DNA of 64,000 nucleotides from positions 1,314,001 to 1,378,000 of the forward strand of contig NC_014836.1 in the NCBI RefSeq assembly GCF_000177635.2, in the 5' to 3' direction. Numbering within the stretch: the stretch's first letter is position 1; every line of letters begins with the position of its first letter. The stretch is from Desulfurispirillum indicum S5. GTDB taxonomy: Bacteria; Chrysiogenota; Chrysiogenetes; Chrysiogenales; Chrysiogenaceae. Position numbers and translations under genes: made by a program. This document shows, piece by piece, positions 19,522 to 54,870 of the stretch. A model generated the notes under the pieces. It saw only the letters and a list, made by a program, of their open reading frames with translations, made no database searches and had not been told where the DNA came from.

Positions 19522-20175
19522 ACTTTCGCATCTTGCTGTCTTGGGTAAGGTGTTATTATCCTGACATTTATCGCGCGAAAGCTGTATTGATTTTGAATGC
19601 TTGATTCATCTGATATTCCTCTTTTCTTTCTGGATATTGTCCTTTTTGACCGCGCAAAAAGGACACAAAAACGCGCCCCCCGAACGCCCGTACTTCCGGC
19701 TCATTGCTCGCCTGTTCTGGAGATCCGGCAGACACTGCCTCCCTGCAGTGCTGCCGGACCACTCACTTCCTGTGAGTGTCCCGTTCGGGTCTTACCAGCC
19801 AGGCGTCGCACTCACCGGACGGGCTCAGGGAGGAACGGCCTGCTTCTGCATCTCCCCCGTGTGCTGGCCCAGCCAGGACGCGCTGACTGGAACGCTATGG
19901 AACCGCAGGGTTGCCGCCACGAGGGCGGCAACCGCAAACCAAAAGCCATGGAGGGCGGTTGTTTGCGGTCCCCAGTTCCAGGCATGCGGATGGCTGAAAA
20001 GGACAGCACTGGGGGTCGCTTTTGCGCCACTTTTGGCGAGTCAAAAGTGGCAAGGAAAACTCCTGAGTAATGGAACCGGAATATCAAGAGACGCAGTCTG
20101 TACAGAACCATTTCCGCCATTCCAGCATGGCATCAGGGTTGGTACAGACAACCTGCCGTTTCGGGAGTGCGAAAG
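19522..20175 (+). repeat. 0.65-kb structured repeat, copy A
   Basis: This stretch is collinear with copies at 27543-28196 and 54213-54870 over nearly its whole length. It is bounded by CTTTCGCA and its inverse TGCGAAAG. Hairpins visible inside: a 10-bp stem at GTCCTTTTTG / CAAAAAGGAC (about 19643), a long stem with CCGGCAG / CTGCCGG outer arms (about 19726), CACTCAC / GTGAGTG (about 19762), GGTTGCCGCC / GGCGGCAACC (about 19908) and GCCACTTTTG / CAAAAGTGGC (about 20027). No transposase or consistent coding frame is present. It fills the gap between the TPR gene and the end of the EAL gene. Confidence 0.88.
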
Positions 20176-27530: not shown

Positions 27531-27542
27531 CAGGCTTTGAGC

Positions 27543-28196
27543 TGAAGCATTGCATCTTATCGCCTCGAATTAAGGTGATATTGTACCAATGCTTACCGCG
27601 CAGAAACAGCGTTCATTTTGCATGCTTGTCATCTCGTATTCGTCTTTATGTTTGCGGATATTGTCCTTTTTGACCGCGCAAAAAGGACGCAAAAACGCGC
27701 CCCCCGAACGCCCGTTTTTCCGGCTCATTGCTCGCCTGTCCTGGAGATCCGGCAGACACTGCATCCTTGCAGTGCTGCCGGACCACTCACTTCCTGTGAG
27801 TGTCCCGTTCGGGTCTTGCCAGCCAGGCATCGCACTCACCGGACGGACTCAGGGGGGAACGGCCTGTTTCTGTCTCTCCCCCGTGTGCTGGCCCAGCCAG
27901 GACGCGCCGACTGGAACGCTATGGACCCGCAGGGTTGCCGCCACGAGGGCGGCAACCGCAAACCAAAAGCCACGGAGGGCGGTTGTTTGCGGTCCCCAGT
28001 TCCAGGCAAGCGGGCGGCTGAAAAGGACAGCACTGGGGGCCACTTTTGCGCCACTTTGGGCGGGTCCAAAGTGGCAAAGAAACTCATAGACAAGGCGAGG
28101 GCAATGTCAAGCGACGCAGTTGTGCGGAACCATTCCGCCATTTCAGCATATCATCTGGAACACGCAGACAACCTGTCGTTTCGGGGAGCGAACGTC
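27543..28196 (+). repeat. 0.65-kb structured repeat, copy B
   Basis: Same element as at 19522-20175 and in the same orientation, with similar order of hairpins. In the last hairpin (about 28051) the stem reads GCCACTTTGG / CCAAAGTGGC where copy A has GCCACTTTTG / CAAAAGTGGC, so a T-A pair has become G-C by two matched changes. The ends are less well kept (GCATCTTATCG left, GGGGAGCGAACG right). It separates the small plus-strand gene from the stop of the convergent SafE-like gene. Confidence 0.88.
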
Positions 28197-28201
28197 CAGC
28201 T

Positions 28202-28891
28202 TTAAGTGACCGGAACAAAACCTGTCAGCCTGGCAGCCTTGTAGAGAAAAACCGCCGCGAAGAAGAGGATGCTCAGTCCGGCAAGGGTGTTGAGCAGCCT
28301 GCGCAGCCCCTGGTAGCGTTTGAAGAAGTCGATGGAGATGGCCAGCAGATACATGGGGGGAATGGTGCACAGCCCGAATACCCCCATGATCAGCGCGCCC
28401 TGCAGGGGTGAGCCGCTGGCTGCCGCCATGGCGGCAAAGAAGTAGACAAAACCGCAGGGCAGCAGACCGTTCAAAAGTCCCAGGCCGAAATAGCTCCACA
28501 GCGAAGGGCTCCGGGTAAAGCGGCGGAAGGTTTGTTGGAAAACGCCGCTGGAAGCCGGATCCCACAGCAGGGGAATCCGGCCCACTCCCAGAAACTGCAG
28601 GCCGATCACAACCATGAGCAGCGCCACCGCCACAAAGAAGATACCGTGCAGGGTGCGGTCAAGTCGAAAGGCGATACCCAGCAGCGCCAGCAGGGCGCCC
28701 ATGGCCACGTAGGTTGTGGTGCGCCCCAGGTTATAGAGCAGGTGTCCACTCAGACGCTGCCAGCGGCTGAGTGCTTCCCCCTTGGCGGTAGTGTAGGCAA
28801 CCACGATGCCGCCGCACATGCCGATACAGTGGCTGAATCCACCCGCCAGAGCTATTCCCGCGATAAAATAGAGATTGTCCAGTATATCCAT
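28202..28891 (-). CDS. SafE/DsbD_2-like membrane protein (sulfite exporter TauE/SafE family label)
   Basis: A 229-residue inner-membrane protein with about six hydrophobic segments. It has the cysteine-containing motifs HCIGMCGG near residue 22-29 and GLLPCGFVYFF near 144, characteristic of the group often found next to cytochrome-oxidase or copper assembly genes and annotated as TauE/SafE or DsbD_2. Actual activity (electron or metal transfer) is not established. The gene stands alone after the htpX terminator; no cytochrome genes lie in the window. Confidence 0.8.
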   Translation of the reverse strand: MDILDNLYFIAGIALAGGFSHCIGMCGGIVVAYTTAKGEALSRWQRLSGHLLYNLGRTTTYVAMGALLALLGIAFRLDRTLHGIFFVAVALLMVVIGLQFLGVGRIPLLWDPASSGVFQQTFRRFTRSPSLWSYFGLGLLNGLLPCGFVYFFAAMAAASGSPLQGALIMGVFGLCTIPPMYLLAISIDFFKRYQGLRRLLNTLAGLSILFFAAVFLYKAARLTGFVPVT

Positions 28892-33849: not shown

Positions 33850-34140
33850 AGCTTTCGCAACCGAATCAGGATGAAAGATGCCGTCCCTTGACTTTGTCCT
33901 CACTGTACGCGTGAGTGGCTTCCACGACTTTGGGTCCGCAGACTCCCGCCCTTCCTGGCTTTTGGTTTGTATTTGCCTCTGCCGTGGCGGCAAGCTCTGC
34001 GTTCATAGTGTTCCGCAACGGTAAAGCACCCATCAGCTGCGTTGCCTGGCATTGCTCGTCACTGCTATGCAGGAGACTCCACCTCTTTCCGCGATTTGTC
34101 CACGTCCGGCAGCGGTGTATTTTCGATTGCCTGCTGATGT
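33850..34140 (-). repeat. Heavily decayed inverted copy of the 0.65-kb repeat
   Basis: Read on the minus strand, this gap aligns with the second half of copies A-C. The best part is about 33930-34020: GGCTTTTGGTTTG, then GTGGCGGCAAGCTCTGCG, then TTCATAGTGTTCC on the plus strand. These match the inverse of the GGTTGCCGCC-hairpin region and flanks in the intact copies. The boundary GCTTTCGCAACC near 33851 resembles the element end. Many differences show that it is old. It occupies most of the 391-base gap between cbiO and the next kinase, which has no gene. Confidence 0.6.
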
Positions 34141-54212: not shown

Positions 54213-54870
54213 AAGTTTCGCACCTAATAGCATTGGTTTAATTCATTATTTCTCTGTCGTTTATCGCGCAGAGGCAGTATTGATTTTGCATGCTTGACTC
54301 ATCTGGAGTTCCTTTTTTTGTTCCGGATATTGTCCTTTTTGACCGCGCAAAAAGGACTCAAAAACGCGCCCCCGAACGCCCGTTCTTCCGGCTCGTTGGC
54401 TTGCCTGTTCTGGAGATCCGGCAGACACTGCATCCCTGCAGTGCTGCCGGACCACTCACTTCCTGTGAGTGTCCCTTCGGGTCTTGCCAGCCAGGCGTCG
54501 CACTCACCGGACGGGCTCAGGGGGGAACGGCCTGCTTCTGTCTTTCCCCCGTGTGCTGTCCCAGCCAGAACGCGCCGACTGGAACGCTATGGACCCGCAG
54601 GGTTGACGCCACGACGGCGGCAACCGCAAACCAAAAGCCACGGAGGGCGGTTGTTTGCGGTCCCCAGTTCCAGGCAAGCGGGCGGCTGAAAAGGACAGCA
54701 CTGGGGGTCGCTTTTGCGCCACTTTTGGCGACCCAAAAGTGGTAAAAGAAACTCATAAACAGGGTGAGGGTAATGCCAAGCGACACAGTCTGTGCAGAAC
54801 CATTTTCGCCATCCTAGCATGGTGTAAGGGTCATCGCCGACAACCTGCCGTTTTTGGGGGTGCGAAACTT
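54213..54870 (+). repeat. 0.65-kb structured repeat, copy C (complete ends)
   Basis: This copy has the best-preserved ends: AAGTTTCGCACC at 54213-54224 and its exact inverse GGTGCGAAACTT at 54859-54870. The interior is collinear with copies A and B, with single-base indels (for example five instead of six C near 54370, and one base lost in CCCTTCGGG near 54474) that change the reading frame while leaving the hairpins. No target-site duplication is obvious. The left end is 32 bases from the start codon of the receiver-PAS gene. Confidence 0.9.

Follow-up and report, generated by a model that had tools for sequence, protein, structure and literature searches.

The question raised by this locus of Desulfurispirillum indicum is whether a hairpin that changes both sides of a base pair between copies of a repeat reflects selection on structure, and to what larger element such a hairpin belongs. 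The 64,000-nucleotide stretch of DNA that we analysed (the window) carries three copies, A, B and C, of a repeat of ~660 bp that occurs at dozens of sites in the 2,928,377-bp genome; copy B spans 27542-28199. Its terminal hairpin is a real stem on the plus strand at 28050-28075, one base to the left of the 28051-28076 given in the first-pass annotation, and reads GCCACTTTGG GCGGGT CCAAAGTGGC (stem, loop, stem). The corresponding hairpins are GCCACTTTTG GCGAGT CAAAAGTGGC in copy A (20026-20051, plus strand) and GCCACTTTTG GCGACC CAAAAGTGGT in copy C (54718-54743, plus strand), the latter with the closing G-T pair that had been described. The reported exchange at the ninth pair (28058/28067) is also present, with G-C in copy B and T-A in copies A and C.

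From this exchange and from frame-breaking indels, the first-pass annotation had argued for selection on structure rather than on protein. A real protein encoded by the 166-aa ORF at 27589-28089, or by the ORFs overlapping it, would be the obvious alternative, and in copy B this ORF does stay open across the repeat. However, none of three ORFs of copy B matches a Pfam family, a scan of genome contigs gave no relative confirmed by tblastn, and 127-bp inserts and other indels disrupt the frame between copies. The protein-coding reading was rejected on the first two grounds, and we regard it as almost certainly wrong. The evidence supports conservation of structure and not of protein, and to that extent the annotation was right, but a compensatory change alone is no proof of selection.

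We therefore turned to the genomic copies for the covariation that the annotation had anticipated. A 300-base query located 40 scored places at 85-100% identity, and pattern searches with different parts of the repeat gave 49, 37, 62 and 64 sites, a few of those with three mismatches being likely chance matches; 69 stretches around most sites were aligned. Across 61 copies, pair 9 is T-A in 50 and G-C in 11, whereas pair 10 is G-C in 35, T-A in 25 and something else in one. When all column pairs of the repeat's core were ranked by covariation, pair 10 came first and pair 9 second. Against an R-scape-like null in which tree and substitution counts are preserved (48 copies, 621 substitutions, 40 simulations), only pair 10 exceeds every null value. 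Pair 9 by itself is not significant in this test: its 11 G-C copies are relatives of one another, so that ~17 null pairs per alignment do as well. The single example on which the annotation relied is thus true yet weak by itself, but support for the hairpin and for the larger structure is strong. Additional compensated pairs occur at the stem base in the diverged copies L075, L077 and L087, and 12 copies show an adjacent triple switch from TCA/TGA to CTG/CAG. A terminator reading of such hairpins was rejected: no terminator-type T run follows those at 28050-28075 or 27663-27688, and the one terminator-like site in the element is internal and at chance level.

The hairpin had been taken as an isolated feature; it actually ends one module of an inverted homologous pair, which is carried by a transposon with terminal inverted repeats (TIRs) and target-site duplications. 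The family ends CTSAASTTTCGCAYC...GRTGCGAAASTTSAG are inverted and form a 15-bp TIR in many copies, and CTSAASTTTCGCAYC ends recur at >100 genome sites with at most one mismatch. Target-site duplications of 6-7 bp are exact in 22 of the 30 copies scored, as in TTCGAG (L019), TATTCA (L015), TTATAA (L017) and TCAGTAA (L031). Inverted ends with duplications of this length identify a MITE-like transposon, and, as in MITEs, no transposase was recognised by Pfam among the three ORFs of copy B. The ends of copy B have decayed. Its left TIR, CTGAAGCATTGCATC against the family CTSAASTTTCGCAYC, lies at 27542-27556 (plus strand) and its right TIR, TCGGGGAGCGAACGTCCAG, at 28181-28199 (minus strand), between the imperfect duplications CTTTGAG (27535-27541) and CTTTAAG (28200-28206), which agree at 6/7 positions. 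From the copy alignment, the remaining shell occupies 27557-27660 and 28079-28180 (both plus strand). Among the matches listed, no TIR pair lies 1-4 kb apart, as would an autonomous partner with the same ends.

Between the shell parts lies a core of ~420 nt (27661-28078, plus strand) made of an inverted pair of structured modules. Module 1 reads on the minus strand, with its terminal hairpin at the outer left end of the core (27663-27688) and a domain of closing stem and hairpins a, b and c at 27730-27828; the hexaloop of hairpin c is AAGGAT (27763-27768; ANGGAN) and the loop of hairpin b is AGGAA (27791-27795; AGGAN). Module 2, inverted relative to module 1, reads on the plus strand and comprises a domain at 27909-28011, with the hairpin b loop ACGAG (27943-27947) and the hairpin c hexaloop ACGGAG (27972-27977; ANGGAN), and the terminal hairpin from which we began. 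Read on the minus strand, the left half of the core aligns over its full length with the right half read on the plus strand, and module 1 scores 82 against module 2, compared with 32 ± 5.9 for shuffles (maximum 56) and 29 for the control orientation.

A covariance model built from module 1 and four copies from a genome of another genus (G001), with no module 2 in its training (R1), detects module 2 in each of the three window copies, on the strand opposite to module 1 (E = 1e-6 to 4e-5; 1.3e-6 in copy B); the extended model R2 finds it in copy B with E = 5e-17. R1 matches the module 1 domain of copy B, itself in the training set, with E = 2.3e-25, and those of copy A (19706-19804, minus strand) and copy C (54399-54496, minus strand) with E = 7.2e-25 and 3.4e-24. 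Both models find the module 2 domains of copy A (19885-19987, plus strand) and copy C (54577-54679, plus strand). Elsewhere in the window, a decayed remnant of module 2, too diverged for the model, lies at 33920-34130 (minus strand) beside remains of a second, ~127-bp repeat.

This second repeat (CAGGCTGCT...GCCTG) interrupts roughly half the copies of module 1 and some of those of module 2. It is a long imperfect palindrome (CAGGCTGCTCAAAGAGGCCC...GCGACGTACAGG...GCCTG), and its insertions (L016, L024, L047 and others) fall at the same two sites, equivalent to window positions 27755/27759 and 27913/27915, where they cut the module domain. Because many copies cut in this way still spread, selection cannot be acting on all copies.

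The core also occurs without the shell, in copies L064, L078, L084 and L087, each end of which stops at a hairpin. Together with the inverted doublet and the hairpins at both ends, these copies favour a REPIN/IS200-like history, in which the core moved as single-stranded DNA, its hairpins recognised by an HUH (Y1) transposase since lost, and the shell MITE acquired the core later; REPINs are likewise inverted doublets in which compensatory changes are common (PMC3116915). However, Y1_Tnp (PF01797) has no match in the genome, although controls matched in five genomes, no GTAG/CGTC tag was seen at the feet of the hairpins, the modules are several times the size of a 20-40 bp REP, and the modules of G001 are single. 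Membership of the REPIN/RAYT or IS200 groups was rejected for want of a Y1 transposase gene in the genome, and a single-stranded origin of the core seems to us unlikely.

How firmly is the fold itself conserved? Both strands of the core fold far more stably than shuffled sequences (z = -6.4 and -8.4). The domain consensus has 35 pairs distributed over the closing stem, hairpin a (CCC-GNAN-GGG), hairpin b and hairpin c. In a plain MAFFT alignment of 12 sequences, the same ones from which the structure was derived, 97.4% of cells are paired and 15 of the 35 pairs are doubly changed. With module 2 included (32 sequences), in an alignment fitted to the structure and so biased towards pairing, 94.0% are paired, against 29-46% for slid partners, and 21 of the 35 consensus pairs are altered on both sides. 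None of 500 shuffles reaches either pairing percentage. A strand test of RNA against single-stranded DNA as the folded form was mixed overall, with eight types of G-U against one of A-C in module 1 and one of G-U against five of A-C in module 2.

These data bear on the view that the element is an ordinary functionless MITE, whose structure persists by shared ancestry alone. The copies are mostly 85-92% alike and many are truncated or carry inserts, and a crude ORF scan revealed no clear bias in how the copies lie with respect to adjacent genes (16 convergent, 12 divergent, 30 tandem and 11 unclear contexts), all of which suits inert cargo. Compensation across genera and across modules, and the invariance of the loops described below, would not be expected of it, and this view is already disfavoured; we consider it very unlikely.

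A more serious challenge comes from mutation. Template switching between hairpin arms during replication yields a compensatory pattern without selection (PMC8794818), and in a MITE rich in inverted repeats the polymerase could copy changes from arm to arm with no selection on the fold. The triple switch in 12 copies is the multi-base pattern that this documented mechanism predicts, and the 5' terminal hairpin of L089 has an inverted loop (GCGCGGTC instead of GACCGCGC), an expected footprint of template switching. Template switching would keep arms paired but would not hold specific loops, whereas here the stems turn over and the loops stay nearly fixed. The loop of hairpin c is ANGGAN in 91 of 93 copies (35/35 for module 1 and 56/58 for module 2), with both N positions varying. 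That of hairpin b is AGGAN in 60 of 61 module 1 matches and also in G001, and in module 2 it is ACGAN, with no GGA. Neither loop is ever inverted in the orientation of the element. Helices b and c, on the other hand, have been replaced almost entirely from one module or genus to the other, yet pairing stays at 94-99% in three of the four long helices. Homogenisation of this kind as the whole explanation seems unlikely. Loops that stay fixed while stems turn over are a better argument for function than compensation is, and purifying selection on the loops beyond one genus is suggested.

The distribution of the modules is narrow. An initial search gave weak matches in two relatives of the same family, one of them G001. 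R1, scanned phylum-wide over 49 genomes, matches only in the D. indicum genome (G000) and G001 and in none of the other 47. R2 finds 132 module domains in the D. indicum genome and five in G001; the family's third genus yields none. In G001 the modules are single and ~225 nt long, and they align to both halves of the core in the same orientation (z = 16-20 against module 1 and 5-8 against module 2, with ≤2.4 in reverse orientation). We have thus shown a TIR element with target-site duplications and two inverted structured modules, whose fold is common to both modules and to both genera.

No relative of the whole element was found in plasmids, phages or viral contigs, and exact-pattern and protein scans of genome contigs likewise returned none. 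None of 4227 Rfam families matches the element, and the CsrB, CsrC and RsmX/Y/Z models gave no match at the gathering threshold or in permissive scans, so that membership of a known RNA family was rejected. With no description in the literature searched either, the modules appear to form an undescribed family of structured elements. The window does contain a cobalamin riboswitch (RF00174, 30883-31060, plus strand; 124 bits, E = 1.1e-30). In addition, a terminal hairpin (CACTTTTCTTTGGTTCTTTC..CAAAAGAAAGAAC) closely resembling the one in the G001 modules is present in two human-gut contigs that lack annotation and are filed as phage (MT837355, L149:180-226; MT839480, L150:358-402). Other hairpins precede it, with stems that appear compensated from one contig to the other, and R2 finds no module domain in either; possibly these represent a different structured family that shares this kind of terminal hairpin.

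The conserved loops offer a candidate partner. CsrB repeats are CAGGA(U/A/C)G within hairpin loops, RsmE binds ANGGAN hexaloops, and CsrA sites obtained by SELEX have loops of mostly six nucleotides, although they prefer short stems (PMC7652899) and those of the modules are long. The hairpin c loops and the hairpin b loops of module 1 have this CsrA/RsmE pattern and are putative docking sites for CsrA, which is most likely the partner. D. indicum has a csrA gene (a 79-aa ORF; PF02599, E = 3.8e-25). At L122:1420-2165 (minus strand), csrA directly adjoins an ORF that, by eye from its sequence, we take to be FliW. Adjacency of csrA and fliW is a known arrangement for FliW-controlled CsrA, and FliW, not RNA, may control CsrA in this organism.

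The interpretation that we favour, which as a whole we hold at roughly even chances, is that the terminal hairpin is the outward-facing end of one of two putatively CsrA-binding structured modules that spread as MITE cargo, with the fold kept by selection. Its anatomy is established by the data above. The basic unit, U, is a module of about 200-225 nt with a long closing stem, three hairpins on top and then the 3' terminal hairpin, two diverged and inverted copies of which make up the ~420-nt core in D. indicum. A non-autonomous MITE (15-bp TIR, 6-7 bp duplications) has carried this core to dozens of places and would have been mobilised in trans by a transposase that was not found and whose DDE class we infer from these TIRs and duplications. 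Selection would act on a single-stranded form, most likely a transcript, although no promoter-like site for the modules was seen and the MITE may carry the core passively. Loops b and c would be the working surfaces, with A(N)GGA displayed on one strand and CsrA as its most likely protein partner, and the module would act as a CsrA-binding RNA, either as a decoy or within the UTRs of adjacent transcripts, while the terminal hairpin might protect the 3' end or mark the border of the element. The further idea that the MITE has spread transposable CsrA-binding RNAs, as distributed decoy or UTR controls for the Csr network across this family of bacteria, is prompted by the paired modules and their CsrA-type loops and is decidedly tentative.

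The conserved fold inside a MITE has strong cross-genus evidence. If CsrA does bind, mobile repeats would allow a global regulator to acquire targets or decoys. The contrast between changing stems and constant loops also makes the family a useful natural example in which to tell selection apart from template-switch homogenisation.

Compared with known systems, the element shares hairpins at its ends, and core-only copies without obvious duplication, with IS200/IS605 elements, but it lacks their Y1 transposase (TnpA) and its ends are mutually inverted. Like REPIN/RAYT (TnpA-REP) systems, it has two inverted homologous units with hairpins, compensatory changes and scattered copies; the units, however, are multi-hairpin domains of ~200 nt rather than palindromes of 20-40 nt, and they lie in a shell with TIRs and target-site duplications, in a genome with no match for a Y1 transposase. 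The CsrA-binding RNAs of the CsrB/RsmZ type and CsrA sites in leaders also present C-A(N)GGAN-G hairpin loops, in the CsrB-repeat and RsmE hexaloop pattern, whereas the modules have at most two sites each, long stems, no Rfam match, no promoter or terminator that was seen and the form of a dispersed repeat, and they are only putative targets of CsrA. With MITEs in general the element shares TIRs, target-site duplications, the lack of a transposase gene and many dispersed copies, and it differs in bearing a large inverted pair of structured modules conserved across genera; no autonomous partner was found among the TIR sites listed. The element is thus similar to repeats of the MITE/REPIN kind, with a specific, putative link to CsrA.
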